A stretch of 64,000 bases of DNA from Haloprofundus salinisoli (lineage in GTDB: Archaea > Halobacteriota > Halobacteria > Halobacteriales > Haloferacaceae), in assembly GCF_020097815.1 (NCBI RefSeq), contig NZ_CP083663.1, forward strand, positions 992,001-1,056,000, given 5' to 3'. Positions 9,595 through 24,995 of the stretch are shown piece by piece; positions within the stretch are counted from its first letter, which is position 1, and every line of letters begins with the position of its first letter. The notes below the pieces were generated by a model that worked only from the letters and a program-made list of their open reading frames with translations, did not search any database and was not told where the DNA came from. The translations under genes and the position numbers were made by a program.

Positions 9595-9666
9595 GGGCTC
9601 GTAGATCAGTGGCAGATCGCTTCCTTCGCAAGGAAGAGGCCCGGGGTTCAAATCCCCGCGAGTCCA
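9595..9666 (+). tRNA. tRNA-Ala (anticodon CGC)
   Basis: The 72-base gene folds into a cloverleaf. The acceptor stem GGGCTCG (9595-9601) pairs with CGAGTCC (9659-9665), with discriminator A at 9666. The anticodon arm CTTCC-TTCGCAA-GGAAG gives anticodon CGC, reading GCG. The T arm CGGGG-TTCAAAT-CCCCG carries the conserved TTCAAAT loop. CCA is not encoded, and no intron is present. Confidence 0.93.
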
Positions 9667-17107: not shown

Positions 17108-17251
17108 GGTGGTGCGGTAGCGGCGGCCGCGCAAAAATCTCCGTGTACCGGCACGTCCCGACCGTTCGGTGAGTCGACTCGGGAGGTCGACTCGGCGCAG
17201 CGACTCACCCTCTCACCCTCCGCGACGTTCCGCGTCGACTCCCCGTCGTGT

Positions 17252-17331
17252 CGATTCACTCTCGGTCGCGCCGATTCACTCTCGGTCGCGCCGATTCACT
17301 CTCGGTCGCGCCGACTTACTCCCCGTCGCGC
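17252..17331. repeat. 20-bp tandem repeats over the 3' end of the glycosyltransferase gene
   Basis: The 20-base unit CGATTCACTCTCGGTCGCGC occurs three times without change at 17252-17271, 17272-17291 and 17292-17311. A variant unit at 17312-17331 contains the last codons and stop of the glycosyltransferase (minus strand), and a more degenerate unit may precede at 17232-17251. On the coding strand each unit reads like a copy of the gene's Arg-Arg-Asp-X-Glu-stop end. There are no CRISPR-like spacers. Confidence 0.85.
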
Positions 17332-18653
17332 CGACTCGTGACGTACACCGAGGGTCGTCGAAGAACGAACTCGTCGAGAAACGCCGCCAGAACCACCGCG
17401 CTCTGGAGGGCGAAATACGCCGGAAGGAGAACCGGGGCGACGTACTCGCGGGGGTCGTGACGGCGACCGTCGAGGCCGTCCCGGAGAAAGAGCGCGTAGG
17501 GAAGCGAAAGCGACAGCAGCGAACAGAGCGGTAGCCACCGGGACGCGGGAGCGGCCGCCGCGAGCTCCACGGCCGCGTCTGCCTCGGCGACGGCGGCCGG
17601 GGAGAGGAGCACGACGACCGGAACCGACAGCAACGCGGCGAACGTGTAGGCGGCGTCGAGGCGGGTCAGTACGGACGTGTGCGGACTGCGGAGCAGGTCG
17701 CCGAGCGACCGCCGGGCGACCTGCATTCCGCCGCGGGCCCACCGCCGACGCTGGCTTCCCCACGCCGACAGCGTCGCCGGATTCAGTTCGGTGGCGACGA
17801 TGGCCGGGTCGACGCGGACACTCCCCCCGCGAGTGTGGATTCGCGTCGCCATCTCCACGTCTTCGAGCAACACGGTCTCGTCGAAGGGACCGAGTCGGGT
17901 CAGCGTCTCCGTCCGAAAGAACGCTTGGCCGCCGGTAAAGAGCGTGAACCAGCCGAGACGCGAACGCGCGACGAACGCCAGTCGCTCGGCGAGATGTCGT
18001 TCGACGGTCACGCAGAGCGACAGCAGCGACTCGCCGGCGTTCCGTCCGTAGCTTCGACCTTTGACACACCAGACGTCGCAGTCGGCCGCCAACCAGCCGA
18101 CCGCCCGCGAGACCGAATCGGGCGCGAGACGCTGTCCGGCGTCGAGACTCGCGACGATCTCGCCGTCGACGTACGGCAGTACGTGGTTGACCGCCGCCGC
18201 CTTCCCCCCGGGCGGCTTCGACCGCTCTACGGCACGGACGCGGGAGTCGGCCGCGGCGGCGCGTCGTGCGACCGCCGCCGTGCCGTCCGTCGACGCCGCT
18301 TCGTACCCGATGAGCAGTTGCACCCGGTCGGCGGGGTAGTCGAGCGCGGCACAGCCAGCGAGCGTCTCTCGGAGCGCGTCGGCGTCGTTGTACGCCGTGA
18401 CGACGACGCTCACCGTCGGCGGGTCCGTCGGGCGCTCCGGTGGGTCGGGGTTCGGCAGGCAGGCGACAGCCGTCACGAGAATCGCTCTGAGAACGCCGCC
18501 GACGGCGGCGAGTGCGCAGAGACCGAGAAAGAGCGGCACGTACCACTCGAACACGAGCGCGGGCGCACAGAGCGCCGACGCGACGACTGTCGCCGCGGCG
18601 ACGGTCGCCCCCGCCCGTCTCACGTCGCCGTCGCCCGGCGTCTCGACCTTCAT
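17316..18653 (-). CDS. Membrane glycosyltransferase, GT2 family
   Basis: The 445-aa protein has two N-terminal helices, a GT2 domain starting PTVSVVVTAYNDADALRET, and four or so C-terminal helices, like processive or polyprenol-linked transferases. LLEDVEM (Glu264-Asp265) and QRRRW (301-305) are the later GT2 motifs. The DxD position reads Asp171-Ala-Gly, so its second Asp is missing, which could alter metal or nucleotide binding. The longer open frame runs through the upstream gene; the ATG at 18653 overlaps that gene's stop by four bases. The likely role is building a surface glycan; donor and acceptor are unknown. Confidence 0.88.
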   Translation of the reverse strand: MKVETPGDGDVRRAGATVAAATVVASALCAPALVFEWYVPLFLGLCALAAVGGVLRAILVTAVACLPNPDPPERPTDPPTVSVVVTAYNDADALRETLAGCAALDYPADRVQLLIGYEAASTDGTAAVARRAAAADSRVRAVERSKPPGGKAAAVNHVLPYVDGEIVASLDAGQRLAPDSVSRAVGWLAADCDVWCVKGRSYGRNAGESLLSLCVTVERHLAERLAFVARSRLGWFTLFTGGQAFFRTETLTRLGPFDETVLLEDVEMATRIHTRGGSVRVDPAIVATELNPATLSAWGSQRRRWARGGMQVARRSLGDLLRSPHTSVLTRLDAAYTFAALLSVPVVVLLSPAAVAEADAAVELAAAAPASRWLPLCSLLSLSLPYALFLRDGLDGRRHDPREYVAPVLLPAYFALQSAVVLAAFLDEFVLRRPSVYVTSRRDGE

Positions 18654-19135
18654 CGACCGTCGTGCGGTTCTCGGGTGCCGAACCAGATGCCGATCGTGAG
18701 GCCGTAGACGACGTGACCGGCGTGGAAGACGACCGCTTCGTCGTGGTCGAGGTCCATCCCCAGCAGACGGCCGAGGACGACCTGCGTGCCGAACACCGAG
18801 AGCGCGAGGCTGTAGAGGACACCGACGGCGAGCGACGTCGTCAGCCCTCGGTCGCGGAGCGTTCGCTCGACTGGGACGAAGGCGACGCCGCCGCCCGCGC
18901 CGTAGAGAAAGTGCAGCAGGAACGCGGGCCCGAGCGCGTCGGGGTCGCCGCCCGCGTACTGCTCCCAGAACGCGCCCGTCGGCGGGAGCGAGCGCGCGAC
19001 AGGGAGTCGAAACAACGTCATCACGGCCGTCCCGATGAGACCGGCCCAGACGCCGGTGACGAGCGGGTGGTCTCGGAACGCCCGGTCGGTTCGGTCCGCG
19101 ATACGGTCGACGGGGTCGGACGATGCGGAACTCAC
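18650..19135 (-). CDS. Conserved membrane protein (DUF6789/DUF1440-like)
   Basis: The 161-aa protein has four hydrophobic segments, including LVTGVWAGLIGTAVMTLFRL and SLAVGVLYSLALSVFGTQVV, and a conserved FLYGAGGGVAF between them, with His residues near the last helix (HAGHVVYGL). I recall similar haloarchaeal proteins as DUF6789; no function is known. The start is a GTG. It is translationally coupled to the glycosyltransferase by an ATGA overlap, so a joint role in the envelope is plausible. Confidence 0.7.
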   Translation of the reverse strand: MSSASSDPVDRIADRTDRAFRDHPLVTGVWAGLIGTAVMTLFRLPVARSLPPTGAFWEQYAGGDPDALGPAFLLHFLYGAGGGVAFVPVERTLRDRGLTTSLAVGVLYSLALSVFGTQVVLGRLLGMDLDHDEAVVFHAGHVVYGLTIGIWFGTREPHDGR

Positions 19136-19287: not shown

Positions 19288-19638
19288 ATGGGTATTATGA
19301 GCAAGATTCTCGGGAACGGACAGCGCTCCACCGAGGACTACGTCGAACTGAACCTCGACGACTTCGACACCGCACAGGGCGAGGCGGGAATGACGGTCCA
19401 CATCGCCGAAATCGCCGGTCAGCAGGACGTCATCGCCATCAAAGACGCCGTCTACGACGGCGACTTCGTCATCGCGGACATCACGCGCCTCCGGACGCAG
19501 GACCGGACGGTCGAACACATCGTCGACGAACTCCAGCAGGTCGCCCGCGAAGTCGACGGCGACATCGTCCAGAAAGGCGACGACCAACTCATTCTCGCGC
19601 CGACGGGCGTCCGCATCGCGCGGCAGAAACTGAACTGA
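19288..19638 (+). CDS. sepF: Cell-division protein SepF
   Basis: The 116-aa protein is the archaeal SepF, the membrane anchor of FtsZ at the division ring. It has a short N-terminal amphipathic segment (MGIMSKILGN) for membrane contact, an acidic linker and the SepF core with VIAIKDAVYDGDFVIADITR and GDIVQKGDDQLILAPTGVRI. An internal ATG at 19297 is an alternative. The GCCAC and GTGGC arms at 19273-19277 and 19283-19287 flank five bases directly before the ATG. From memory, sepF lies next to uvrA in Haloferax volcanii; here two methyltransferase genes are interposed. Confidence 0.93.
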   Translation: MGIMSKILGNGQRSTEDYVELNLDDFDTAQGEAGMTVHIAEIAGQQDVIAIKDAVYDGDFVIADITRLRTQDRTVEHIVDELQQVAREVDGDIVQKGDDQLILAPTGVRIARQKLN

Positions 19639-19663: not shown

Positions 19664-20611
19664 TCAGTCGTCCGCGACGGGTTTCGGGACCGTCTCGACG
19701 CGTCGGGGCCCGTTGGTCGCATCACGACTCGCGGCCGGTTTTTGCGCGTACCGACACCAGCCGGGGCCGTCGTACTCGTCGAAGTAGACGTAGTGGACGG
19801 CGAGTTCACCGTGCTGGGCTTCGGGCGCTCGCTCGGTGACGAACGTGTCGAACGCGTCGTTCCAGCCGACGTGCGGCGAGACGAGGATGCCACCGGGAGC
19901 GAGATGTTCCCACGCGAGGTCGAACTCGAACAGCATCCCCGTCTTCGAGTGCTCCGAATCGTGGACGAACAGCTCTATCTCGCCGATCTCCTCCAAGAGC
20001 TGCGGGAGTTCCTGCTGCGGGCGTCCGGTGACGAGTTGCCAGCGTTCGCGGAGGTCGTCGGGGACGATCCAACCGGGTTGCTTGCCCGCCGGGAGGAGGT
20101 GGCTGCCGTCCTCACAGCAGGAGGGGCGGCGTCGCTCGTAGTGTCGTTTCGTCTCGGGGTCGAGTTCGTCGAGCTGCGCCGAGCAGTCGATGGAGTACAG
20201 CGTGCCGTGGTCGTTCACCGAGAGCGCGGCGAGAATCGCCAGCGTCGACACGCCGTTGTAGACGCCCGTCTCGACGACCGACGTGGGTCGAAGCTTCCGG
20301 ACGAGCGCGTAGTAACGGACGCACTCCTCCTTGTGAGAGTCGTAGATCGGTTGCGAGTGTTCCTGCCACGCTTCGTACAACAGGCCGGGAACAGGACCCT
20401 GATTGAACTCCGCTTCGTACGCCTCGAACTCCGCTCTACTGTCGAAGAAGCGGTCGACGAACAGCTCGCGGGAACGGGTTTTGCGTTCGTACAGCGACCA
20501 GGATGCACCGGGGTGTAGCGTGTAGAAACATCTCGTCGCCAGCGGTTTGGTCCACGAGGGGGCGCTCGTGTATGCAGCACGACGTACGCGGCTGAGAGAC
20601 GGGACCTGCAT
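19664..20611 (-). CDS. Class I SAM-dependent methyltransferase (Methyltransf_24-like), copy A
   Basis: The 315-aa protein has a Rossmann methyltransferase core: motif I VVETGVYNGVSTLAIL, an acidic strand end YSIDCS, and IELFVHDSEHSKTGMLFEFD, where the DSEH segment probably forms the active site. An N-terminal region of about 100 residues (FYTLHPGASWSLYERK) is shared with its neighbour. The ATG at 20611 is preferred over 20626 because an AT-rich TATATAATT-like element (about 20634-20645) is the right distance away. It is a tandem paralogue of the next gene. The acceptor is unknown; similar genes cluster with glycan synthesis in haloarchaea. Confidence 0.82.
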   Translation of the reverse strand: MQVPSLSRVRRAAYTSAPSWTKPLATRCFYTLHPGASWSLYERKTRSRELFVDRFFDSRAEFEAYEAEFNQGPVPGLLYEAWQEHSQPIYDSHKEECVRYYALVRKLRPTSVVETGVYNGVSTLAILAALSVNDHGTLYSIDCSAQLDELDPETKRHYERRRPSCCEDGSHLLPAGKQPGWIVPDDLRERWQLVTGRPQQELPQLLEEIGEIELFVHDSEHSKTGMLFEFDLAWEHLAPGGILVSPHVGWNDAFDTFVTERAPEAQHGELAVHYVYFDEYDGPGWCRYAQKPAASRDATNGPRRVETVPKPVADD

Positions 20612-20805
20612 ACCTCTACGTGACAACGTACTCCGATATAATTAGATGCACCGTAGCAACGCGTAATATCCGGCTTCTCCGGGGAATGGGCTCCGTTCGT
20701 GCGTCGCCGGCGGTCGGCGAAAGAGAGAGCGCGAAGACGCGGCCACAGCGAGTTCGGCCGGGCCAGCGTGCGAATTACCGAGACAGCGACCCGAGCGGCC
20801 CCCAG

Positions 20806-21744
20806 TTAGTCGTCCGATACCAGTTGGGGTTCGAGCGGAGACGCCCCGGCCGTCGATGCGGTGAGCGGCTTTCGGGCGTACTTACCCCATCCCGGTTGGC
20901 TGTGTTTGTCGAAGTGGATGTAGTGGACGGCGGTCTTGCCGTACTCGGCGTTAGGGGCACGCTCGGTGACGAACGTGTCGAACGCGTCGTTCCAGCCGGC
21001 GTGGTGCGAAAAGAGCATCCCGCCGGGGGCAAGGTGTTCCCACGCGAGGTCGAACTCGAACAGCATCCCCGTCTTCGAGTGCTCCGAATCGTGGACGAAC
21101 ATATCGACCGACTCCAGTTTCGACAGCAGTTTCGGGAGTTCGCGCTGGCTGCGGCCGGTGACGAACTCCCACCGGTCGTGGAGCTTCTCGGGGACGACCC
21201 AGCCCGGTTCCTTGTCGGCGGGAATGAGGTGGCTGTCGCGCTGTGAACAGGACGGACGACGACGCTCGTACCGTGCTACGTCGGCTTCGTCGGTCGGATC
21301 CAGAAGCGACGAGTAGTCGATGGAGTAGAGCGTCCCGGAGTCGTTTCTGTCGAGCGCGGCGAGAATCGCCAGCGTCGACACGCCGTGGAAGACGCCCGTC
21401 TCGACGACTGTCTGCGGCTTGTACTTCCGGATGTACGCGTAGTACCGCACGCAGTCGGCCTTGTGGATGTCGTAGAAGGTCTCGTTGCCGAGTTCTTGGT
21501 ACGCGCGTCTGAGATTCTCGGCGATGACGCCGTTCATGAACTCCGCTTCGTACGCCTCGAGTTCCGCTTCGCTGTCGAAGAACTGCTCGATGAACGCTTG
21601 GCGGGTGAGCTCTTTCTCTTTGAACGTCTCCCACGACGCATTGGGATGGAGAACGTAGAACGCTTTCCGCACCGCGGGTCTCACCCACTCAGGAATAGCG
21701 TCGAACGTCTTCTGTCGTGCGCGCTTGACATGCCGAACCAGCAT
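20806..21744 (-). CDS. Class I SAM-dependent methyltransferase (Methyltransf_24-like), copy B
   Basis: The 312-aa paralogue of copy A has motif I TVVETGVFHGVSTLAIL, YSIDYS and VDMFVHDSEHSKTGMLFEFD. The two proteins align over nearly full length with scattered differences, yet 67 bases (21035-21101 against 19905-19971) are identical, which points to gene conversion. The ATG at 21744 lies 27 bases from an ACTTTTAGTG promoter element, so the upstream ATG at 21807 is not used. The surrounding intergenic DNA is clearly AT-richer than the rest of the window. Confidence 0.82.
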   Translation of the reverse strand: MLVRHVKRARQKTFDAIPEWVRPAVRKAFYVLHPNASWETFKEKELTRQAFIEQFFDSEAELEAYEAEFMNGVIAENLRRAYQELGNETFYDIHKADCVRYYAYIRKYKPQTVVETGVFHGVSTLAILAALDRNDSGTLYSIDYSSLLDPTDEADVARYERRRPSCSQRDSHLIPADKEPGWVVPEKLHDRWEFVTGRSQRELPKLLSKLESVDMFVHDSEHSKTGMLFEFDLAWEHLAPGGMLFSHHAGWNDAFDTFVTERAPNAEYGKTAVHYIHFDKHSQPGWGKYARKPLTASTAGASPLEPQLVSDD

Positions 21745-22040
21745 GGATGTACCTACGAGTCTAGCCACTAAAAGTACGTGCCGATGAATATCTCCAGAAT
21801 TAGACAATTCTCTTTATCCGTTAGACAGTTTTTACTGTATGTAATTCTTCAACTAGTGGTTGGAGGAACCGGGCGTTCCGTTTCGGGAATTCCCCTATTT
21901 CGACCCGGTGACGGGCACTGAGTACAGTGTTCGGGATTCGGAAGGGGCCGAATAACGGCTGTATGGTCACCATTCTGTGTGAGTCGATATCACTCGGAAC
22001 CGACGAGTATTCAGGTATCCCCGACATAGCGTGCTTCCAG
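21745..22040. other. AT-rich intergenic region between the methyltransferase pair and uvrA
   Basis: This 296-base divergent region is visibly richer in A and T than its surroundings, especially 21765-21850. It holds the promoter of methyltransferase copy B (ACTTTTAGTG on the minus strand at 21766-21775) and, near 22006-22013, a GAGTATTC element 27-30 bases from the uvrA ATG. No other gene is apparent. Confidence 0.55.
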
Positions 22041-24995
22041 ATGAGTAAGGACTACATCGAGGTCCGAGGGGCCGAAGAACACAACCTCAAAGATCTCGAC
22101 GTGCGCATCCCACGTGAAACGTTCACGGTGGTCACGGGGCTGTCGGGGTCCGGGAAGTCGTCGCTCGCGTTCGAGACGATCTACGCCGAAGGGCAGCGTC
22201 GATACATCGAGTCGTTGTCGGCGTACGCCCGGAACTTCCTCGGGCAGATGGACAAACCGCAGGTCGAGTCCGTCGAAGGGCTCTCGCCGGCGATCTCCAT
22301 CGACCAGAAGAACGCCGCGAACAACCCCCGCTCGACGGTGGGCACCGTCACCGAACTCCACGACTACCTCCGCCTCCTGTACGCTCGCGTCGGCACGCCG
22401 CACTGTCCGGAGTGCGGCCGCGAGGTCGGCGAGCAGAGCGCCCAGCAGATGGTGCGGCGCATCCTCGAACTCCCCGAGGGGACCCGCGCGAAGATCGCCG
22501 CGCCGGTCGTCCGCGACCAGAAAGGCGCGTTCGAGGACCTGTTCGACGAACTCGTCTCAGAGGGGTACTCCCGCGTCGAAGTCGACGGCGAGGAGTACGA
22601 CCTCGCGATGGAGAAACCCGACCTCGACGAGAACTACGACCACACCGTCGACGTCGTCGTCGACCGAGTGAAGATATCGGCGGAAGCGCGCTCGCGTATC
22701 ACCGACTCCGTCGAGACGGTGCTCGAAGAGGCCGACGGCGTGCTGAAGGTCATCGTTCCCGACCCGCCCGCGGCCGACGAGTTCCACCTCGGCACCGAGG
22801 CCCGCGCGACCGGCGACCTCGCCGGCGGTGGCGACGAGCGCCTCGTCGTCGAGTTCTCCGAGGAACTCGCCTGCACGCACTGCGGCATCGACTTCTCCGA
22901 AATCGAGACGCGGTCGTTCTCCTTCAACTCGCCGCACGGCGCGTGTCCCGAGTGTGAGGGCATCGGCAACACCAAGGAGATAGACCCCGAGCTCGTCGTC
23001 GAGGACCCCTCGAAACCCATCAAACACGTCTTCGAGCCGTGGAGCTACAAGCGGTCGTACTACCGGACGCGACTCGACTCGGTCGCCGAGCACTTCGGGG
23101 TCAGCGTCTCGACGCCGTTCGAGGATCTCGACGACGACGTGCAGCGGCAGTTCCTCTACGGCACCGACCGACAGGTCGTCTTCGAGCGCCAGACGCGAAA
23201 CGGCGTCCGCCGGAAGACGAAGCGGTTCGAGGGCGTCATCCCGAACCTCGAACGCCGCCACATCGAGACGGAGTCGAAAGGCACCCGCGAGCACATCGAG
23301 GAGTACATGGCCGTGACGACCTGTCCGGCCTGCAACGGCACGCGCCTGAAGCCCCAGTCGCGTTCTGTCTACATCGACGGCATCGCCATCACCGAGGTGA
23401 ACCGGATGAGTATCGGCGACGCGCTCGCGCATTTCGAGAGCCTGGAGGCGGACCTCACCGACCGCGAGCGGACCATCGCCGAGGAGATTCTCAAGGAGAT
23501 TCGCGCGCGACTCGGCTTCATGACCGAGGTCGGTCTCGACTACCTGACGCTCGACCGGGAGGCGTCGACGCTCTCCGGCGGCGAGAGCCAGCGGATTCGG
23601 CTGGCGACGCAGGTCGGGTCCGGACTCGTCGGCGTGCTGTACGTGCTCGACGAACCGTCTATCGGCCTCCACCAGCGCGACAACGACAAACTGCTCGACA
23701 CGCTCGAAGGCCTGCGCGACCTCGGTAACACGCTGCTCGTCGTCGAACACGACGAGGAGACGATGCGCCGTGCGGACAACATCATCGACATGGGTCCCGG
23801 GCCGGGCAAGCGAGGCGGTGACATCGTCGTGCAAGGCGACTTCGACGAGGTATGCGAGGCGGACAACTCCATCACAGCCGACTACCTCTCGGGACGAAAG
23901 GACGTTCCGGTGCCCGAGACGCGGCGCGGGCCCGACGGCGAGCTCACGGTTCGAGGCGCGCGCCAGCACAACCTGAAGGACCTTGACGTGTCGCTCCCGC
24001 TCGGCACGTTCACGGCGATTACGGGCGTCTCGGGGTCCGGGAAGTCGACGCTCATACACGACATCCTCTACAAGGGACTGGCCCGCGAGATGAACAACAA
24101 CACCTCCGTCGACCCCGGCGACCACGACGCCATCGAGGGCATCGACCGAATCGAGACGGTGCGTCTCATCGACCAGTCGCCCATCGGGCGGACGCCGCGG
24201 TCGAACCCGGCGACGTACACCGGCGTCTTCGACTACGTCCGCGATCTGTTCGCCGAGACGAAGCTCTCGAAGCAGCGCGGCTACGAGAAGGGTCGCTTCT
24301 CGTTCAACGTCAAGGGCGGTCGCTGCGAGGAGTGCGGCGGCCAGGGTGACGTCAAAATCGAGATGAACTTCCTCTCGGACGTGTACGTCCCCTGCGAGGA
24401 GTGCGGCGGCGCACGCTACAACGACGAGACGCTCGACGTGACGTACAAGGGCAAGACCATCGCCGACGTACTCGGCATGGAGGTCGACGAGGCCTACGAG
24501 TTCTTCGAGGCGAACTCCCAGATTCGGCGACGCCTCCAGCTGCTCAAGGACGTCGGCCTCGGTTACATGACGCTCGGCCAGCCGTCGACGACGCTCTCGG
24601 GCGGCGAGGCCCAGCGCATCAAACTCGCCGAGGAACTGGGGAAGAAAGACACCGGCGACACGCTGTACCTGCTCGACGAGCCGACGACGGGGCTGCACAA
24701 AGAGGACGAGCGAAAGCTCATCGACGTGCTGCACCGCCTCGTCGACAACGGCAGTACCGTCGCCGTCATCGAACACGAGCTCGATCTGGTGAAAAACGCC
24801 GACCACGTCCTCGATTTGGGTCCGGAAGGCGGCGAGAACGGCGGCGAAGTCGTCGCCGCCGGGACGCCCGAGGAGGTCGCCCGCGAGGAGTCGTCGTACA
24901 CCGGCCGCTACCTCCGCGACATGCTCCCGGCCGTCGATATCGAGGGACCGCGCGCCGACCAGCGCGAACCCGCGAAGCCGACGACCGACGACTGA
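22041..24995 (+). CDS. uvrA: Excinuclease ABC subunit A (UvrA)
   Basis: The 984-aa protein is a full-length bacterial-type UvrA, the damage-recognition ATPase of nucleotide excision repair. Two ABC modules are present: Walker A at 33-40 (GLSGSGKS) and about 662-670 (GVSGSGKST), with signatures [12 protein letters not shown] and [12 protein letters not shown]. Zinc-binding Cys pairs occur in [20 protein letters not shown] and CEECGGQ/CEECGG. Haloarchaea obtained uvrABC from bacteria. The frame is open 38 codons further upstream, but [16 protein letters not shown] is the family N-terminus and has a TATA-like element at the right distance. Confidence 0.97.

Follow-up and report, generated by a model that had tools for sequence, protein, structure and literature searches.

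What does a long stretch of identical DNA shared by two neighbouring, otherwise divergent genes record? In the window, the whole stretch of 64,000 nucleotides of Haloprofundus salinisoli analysed here, two methyltransferase-like genes lie in the order sepF, A, B, uvrA and share 67 identical bases. A preliminary description of this DNA took the block as a sign of recent gene conversion or strong constraint, and the pair as a transferred accessory module. The locus therefore raises the question of whether A and B exchange sequence, and of whether their presence between sepF and uvrA is recent.

Results

A and B are paralogous methyltransferase genes

The locus comprises the following genes:
19288..19638, plus strand: sepF, cell-division protein, left flank (PF04472, 53.5 bits)
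19664..20611, minus strand: gene A, 315 aa, ATG at 20611; predicted class I SAM-dependent methyltransferase, PF13578 (Methyltransf_24)
20806..21744, minus strand: gene B, 312 aa, ATG at 21744; paralogue of A, PF13578 (Methyltransf_24)
22041..24995, plus strand: right flank, a gene that we take to be uvrA (DNA repair), 96-97% identical within the genus

Profile search placed both A (62.3 bits) and B (75 bits) above the PF13578 cut-off of 26.3, and pairwise alignment over 316 columns gave 177 identical residues (56%), confirming that the two adjacent genes are a paralogous methyltransferase pair. The match begins at residue 113-114. A and B have the D-S-E-H motif that is conserved after strand 4 in the Methyltransf_24 core, and they differ from the family in forming a tandem pair with approximately 110 N-terminal residues outside the match. 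A search of NCBIfam returned no meaningful family for either protein. Two origins were considered and rejected: phage (no PHROG family and no match in the phage collection) and tRNA-linked insertion (a single tRNA was detected in the window, at 9595-9666). Among the titles listed by literature searches, in which subscription journals were mostly outside coverage, none dealt with the pair or with haloarchaeal sepF-uvrA synteny.

The pair stood between sepF and uvrA before the genus radiated

The order sepF-A-B-uvrA was found in 4 of the 5 Haloprofundus genomes, the fifth (G002) having sepF-B-uvrA; orthologs of A and B were thus present in 3 and 4, respectively, of the four other genomes of the genus. 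Two-sequence comparison revealed, between sepF and B of G002, a 100-base stretch that matches the 3' end of A with 69% identity (E 3e-4), and this A-like remnant suggests that G002 lost gene A. Outside the genus, 12 of 55 genomes had sepF and uvrA less than 1 kb apart with their order unchanged, as judged from positions read by eye. These include G021, G023 and G025, which represent three genera and have a sepF 85-90% identical, and also G044 from another family. No A/B match was found around sepF of G021 and G023, and in the 7 genomes outside the genus with any A/B match, the match lay elsewhere than at sepF. The adjacency outside the genus, together with the absence of A/B beside sepF there, indicated that the sepF-uvrA neighbourhood is the older arrangement and that the pair entered it before the radiation of the genus. 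The pair does therefore interrupt this neighbourhood, as the preliminary description had proposed with reference to Haloferax. As a separate observation, the uvrA match of G052 (G052:C31:29120-32011) contains one internal TAA and may be an assembly error or a pseudogene.

The insertion itself had been suspected to be recent. A recently transferred module in the window's genome would fit a patchy distribution, and close homologues (E 1e-20) were indeed present in 6 of 170 family genomes, five of the six being Haloprofundus, and in 19 of 391 class genomes. It would also fit the low GC3 of the two genes: against a mean of 0.872 (sd 0.028) for 47 window genes, A at 0.81 lies about 2.2 sd below and B at 0.83 about 1.6 sd. 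Against this, the pair stands at the same place in four of the five genus members, with B in all five and an apparent remnant of A in the fifth, and the ortholog dS of A and B is like that of neighbouring uvrA or somewhat above it. The shared position in the genus argues for an old insertion, and we consider recent transfer extremely unlikely. The low GC3 is consistent with an old acquisition, which likely took place at or before the base of the genus.

The spacers of the locus contain two elements of note:
20638..20658, minus strand: TGCTACGGTGCATCTAATTAT, conserved element situated upstream of A and probably its core promoter; four species agree at 20 of 21 positions
21745..22040, no strand assigned: AT-rich spacer from which B and uvrA diverge; the parts beside both genes are conserved

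The flanks of the pair had been described as AT-richer than the window (65.9% GC). This holds for the B-uvrA spacer (48.6% GC), which measures 294-296 bases in all five genus genomes, but not for the A-B spacer (62.9%) or the 25 bases on the sepF side (72%). The A-B spacer is mostly variable in the four species apart from TGCTACGGTGCATCTAATTAT; conservation was also seen upstream of B, over a stretch shared by five species. The elements upstream of A and B look like separate promoters. With up to 3 mismatches allowed, each had a single occurrence in the genome, and a regulon shared through these elements was rejected on that ground. The stretch at 20638-20658 is unusually long for a conserved promoter-like element.

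The 67-base block is conserved across the genus

The two copies of the block are located as follows:
19905..19971, minus strand: 67-base block in A, identical to 21035-21101; encodes FVHDSEHSKTGMLFEFDLAWE, the motif after strand 4
21035..21101, minus strand: 67-base block in B, copy of the A block at 19905-19971

When identical runs of at least 25 bases between A and B were listed, three were obtained: the 67-base block (alignment codons 215-237), a 39-base run in the ERAP region (codons 249-262) and a 35-base run at codons 120-131. The preliminary description had located the first exactly and had put the second at about 40 bases; the third had been missed. With amino acids fixed and codons drawn independently from the codon usage of the window, the probability of a fully identical block is approximately 4e-5. 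By the yardstick of orthologs, the 67-base run is unremarkable, since ortholog synonymous similarity in the block is 0.84 per codon (gene average 0.75) and B of G003 and B of G004 share a 68-base run over the same block.

Comparison of the genus copies led to the same view. Across four A and four B copies, 7 sites of the block vary, and A-B runs between different genomes reach 36-50 bases there in 12 of 12 pairs of G000 (the window's genome), G001, G003 and G004; they are below 30 bases in all 4 pairs involving B of G002. The window's genome showed no excess of private sharing between A and B. When the four A copies were compared, the bases that its A alone carries agreed with its own B at 11 of 35 sites, and with the B of other genomes at a mean of 12.0; the corresponding values for bases private to B were 15 of 49 and 14.3. 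Taken alone, the 67-base block speaks only weakly for recent conversion, as similar runs occur between species, and the recent event proposed for this genome is not borne out.

These observations agree with an explanation that needs no conversion in the window's block, namely protein constraint combined with codon preference, the A-B distance in the core being no larger than that between species. The whole-gene A-B dS (0.625) is also near the ortholog range (0.29-0.53). The codons GAT TCG at positions 219-220 speak against it. They are common to A and B of the window's genome, and GAT is found at this place in A of G000 and G003 but, among the five B copies, in that of G000 alone. This is one hint, carried by two codons, of conversion in the window's own block. 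Weighing these points together with the regional divergence described below, we give the explanation without conversion in this block an even chance.

Alternatively, a hidden element could fix the block at the DNA or RNA level. In favour of such an element, the codons for TGMLFEFDLAW are nearly constant in all nine genus copies. However, ten distant homologues compared with the genus copies gave synonymous identities in the block of 0.41-0.85, with 0.56-0.69 expected from codon usage; the highest value, from Haloarcula pelagica, was obtained on 11 codons. These near-expected values make a family-wide DNA element unlikely, and it was rejected as a candidate. Furthermore, the ortholog synonymous identity of the block is only mildly above the gene average, and its expectation is also higher (0.62 versus 0.56-0.58 for the gene). 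We therefore regard a hidden element as very improbable.

Short-tract conversion between A and B is supported in the genus

The candidate region for exchange lies outside the 67-base block, in the SAM-binding core (coordinates taken from the alignment by hand):
20192..20230, minus strand: codons 129-141 of A, the tract where A and B agree in two sister species, G004 and G001
21322..21360, minus strand: corresponding tract of B, codons 129-141

Conversion was tested by taking the longest run of matches at variable sites in A-B pairs of the same genome and comparing it with 20,000 shuffles, either over all sites or confined locally to codons 90-160. The A-B pair of G004 had 18 consecutive matches at codons ~129-141, a length reached in 0 of 20,000 shuffles, also locally. 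In G001 the run comprised 15 matches at codons ~129-141 (p 5e-5 over all sites, 0 of 20,000 locally). Runs in the remaining two genomes were shorter: 10 in G000 (p 0.004 over all sites, 0.001 locally) and 8 in G003 (p 0.015 and 0.002), these p values being before correction for the number of pairs. Same-genome tracts therefore exceeded the shuffles strongly in two of the four genomes and weakly in the other two. Among the 12 cross-genome pairs (2,000 shuffles), one had a comparable run, A of G000 with B of G001 (11 matches, p 0.001).

The tract of G004 also indicates a direction. A of G004 carries the DRNDSGR coding sequence of G004 B, the three other A copies differ, and B of G002 shares the DRNDSGR state at the protein level; on this pattern, copying in G004 was probably from B to A. 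Bases common to exactly one A and one B were found 23 times within a genome and 25 times between genomes, where 1:3 was expected (p 5e-4, a value that is too small because sites within a tract are linked), and 14 of the 23 come from G004. In a phylogenetic tree, A and B formed two separate, well supported clades (99/99 and 100/99). Separate A and B clades were not rejected in any of the 6 segment sets, the lowest p-AU of the constrained tree being 0.196. This value belongs to the segment of codons 108-144, in whose tree A of G004 joins B of G004 with a support of 66. Collectively, the data support occasional short A-B conversion in the genus, in G004 and G001 at codons ~129-141; that part of the preliminary proposal stands, without extending to a recent event in the window's genome.

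The catalytic core of A and B is more alike than the rest

Synonymous divergence between A and B differed along the genes. The mean A-B dS was 0.51 in codons 37-144 and 0.42 in codons 216-276, as compared to 1.07 in codons 1-36 and 1.02 in codons 145-215, and it reached 3.0 in the poorly aligned tail. The ortholog mean dS was 0.34-0.54 in the first two regions and 0.44-0.62 in the other two. The synonymous distance between A and B is thus ortholog-like in the catalytic core and about twice that outside. With an A-B dS of about 1.0 outside it, the core shows a likeness that is unusual for these paralogues, so that older homogenisation is likely, which counts against the explanation without conversion. 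A regional mosaic scan in which no limits were chosen was borderline (CUSUM p = 0.054), and the evidence is suggestive of older conversion events in both core segments. The dN/dS ratio, 0.17-0.24 in the 7 ortholog pairs computed, indicated purifying selection.

A and B are predicted to methylate surface glycans

An AlphaFold2 model of B (mean pLDDT 79.1, pTM 0.79) had its best structural matches, among those listed, in catechol/cation-dependent O-methyltransferases (3tr6, Z 18.4, rmsd 4.8, 199 aligned residues), with many ties and the best 50 all within 1.5 Z. No CmcI chain was present among these 50 matches, an absence to which we attach no weight; the sequence search gave a CmcI match at E 1.2. 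The model thus resembles the cation-dependent O-methyltransferases (PF01596; SafC, COMT, caffeoyl-CoA OMT) in overall fold at Z ~17-18, a likeness that by itself shows no function. Unlike these enzymes, with which A and B share 12-19% identity among the matches listed, the pair appears to be changed at two of the three metal-ligand positions. The metal ligands of COMT are Asp, Asp and Asn. The core of A and B contains an invariant ETGV stretch and, near strand 4, D219, S220 and H222; a weak profile alignment puts D219 opposite the first metal-ligand Asp, and H/P247 and H248 opposite the Asp-Asn pair. Gene A scored 10.8 bits against PF01596, below the cut-off of 22, and B was not among the PF01596 matches. 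The N-terminus, middle and tail differ most between A and B, so the two enzymes possibly act on different acceptors.

The genomic context of homologues was read in part from a neighbour scan of 20 proteins from 5 homologue loci, several of them without a family. Distant haloarchaeal homologues adjoin genes for an epimerase/GDP-mannose dehydratase, a GNAT/FemAB protein, glycosyltransferases and a polysaccharide-synthesis membrane protein, and the homologue of Haloarcula pelagica lies near wecB, a nucleotide-sugar dehydrogenase and a DegT aminotransferase. Two plasmid homologues of the pair are in non-glycan contexts, and in the window the near neighbours of A and B are not glycan genes, except for one family-2 glycosyltransferase beyond sepF. 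The earlier suggestion of glycan or lipid methylation is therefore retained for glycans, which fit the context of several distant homologues; nothing pointing to lipids was found. Based on fold and context, A and B are most likely surface-glycan O-methyltransferases. A precedent is AglP, an N-glycosylation methyltransferase of Haloferax volcanii that is reported to modify a surface sugar (PMC4335974). The likeness to this haloarchaeal enzyme concerns the kind of substrate, predicted from context for A and B, and the pair differs from AglP in lying outside any glycosylation gene cluster.

Further features were observed around these loci. Two genes in the region 17316-19135, one for the family-2 glycosyltransferase and one for a protein of 161 aa that weakly matches DUF6789, are neighbours of sepF in the genus as well as in G021; of 40 genomes searched, only 7 had a match to the glycosyltransferase at E 1e-60. 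At 17238-17334, between a DUF1028 gene and the glycosyltransferase gene, is a short tandem array of about 4 copies of the 20-base unit CGATTCACTCTCGGTCGCGC. In the plasmid of Haloarcula sp. JP-L23 (L072, 1171-24681), a homologue of the pair lies within a long one-strand run of mostly hypothetical genes, which gives the impression of a virus or other mobile element.

Discussion

The reading that we favour, and hold to be somewhat better than an even bet, is that A and B both act as O-methyltransferases on glycans, that short conversion from time to time homogenises the catalytic core common to them, and that their substrate-facing parts have diverged. One gene would have entered, probably just behind the stop codon of sepF, in or before the ancestor of the genus, and a tandem duplication would then have given rise to A and B; the presence of the pair before the genus radiated is shown by synteny. 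The catalytic core that the two would have in common comprises the SAM-binding stretch at about codons 108-144 and the HDSEHS region at about 216-240. The N-terminus, the 145-215 segment and the tail appear to have diverged, and the two enzymes probably recognise different acceptors. Since then, short core tracts would have been copied between A and B, and one species would later have been left without A.

A more far-reaching version, which we put forward tentatively and consider rather unlikely, is that micro-conversion over tens of bases keeps the SAM-binding/catalytic core of A and B matched while leaving the acceptor segments free, each gene having its own conserved promoter, and that a probably polyploid archaeon would in this way vary the methylation of its surface sugars. 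In polyploid Haloferax, gene conversion is efficient, according to a study that deals with chromosome copies and long tracts (PMC8223754). The tracts described here differ from the Haloferax case, being tens of bases long and lying between 56%-identical paralogues rather than chromosome copies. Instead, they are like the concerted evolution of multigene families, where one paralogue receives short tracts from another in the same genome.

The kind of system is already known, and the pair is a modest further example of it. The 67-base block illustrates that a long identical stretch between paralogues is not by itself a sign of recent conversion when it is conserved in nearly all copies of a genus. 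The locus also offers, on a small scale, a natural example of conversion in short tracts between haloarchaeal paralogues that have diverged, and A and B are a candidate pair of glycan methyltransferases.
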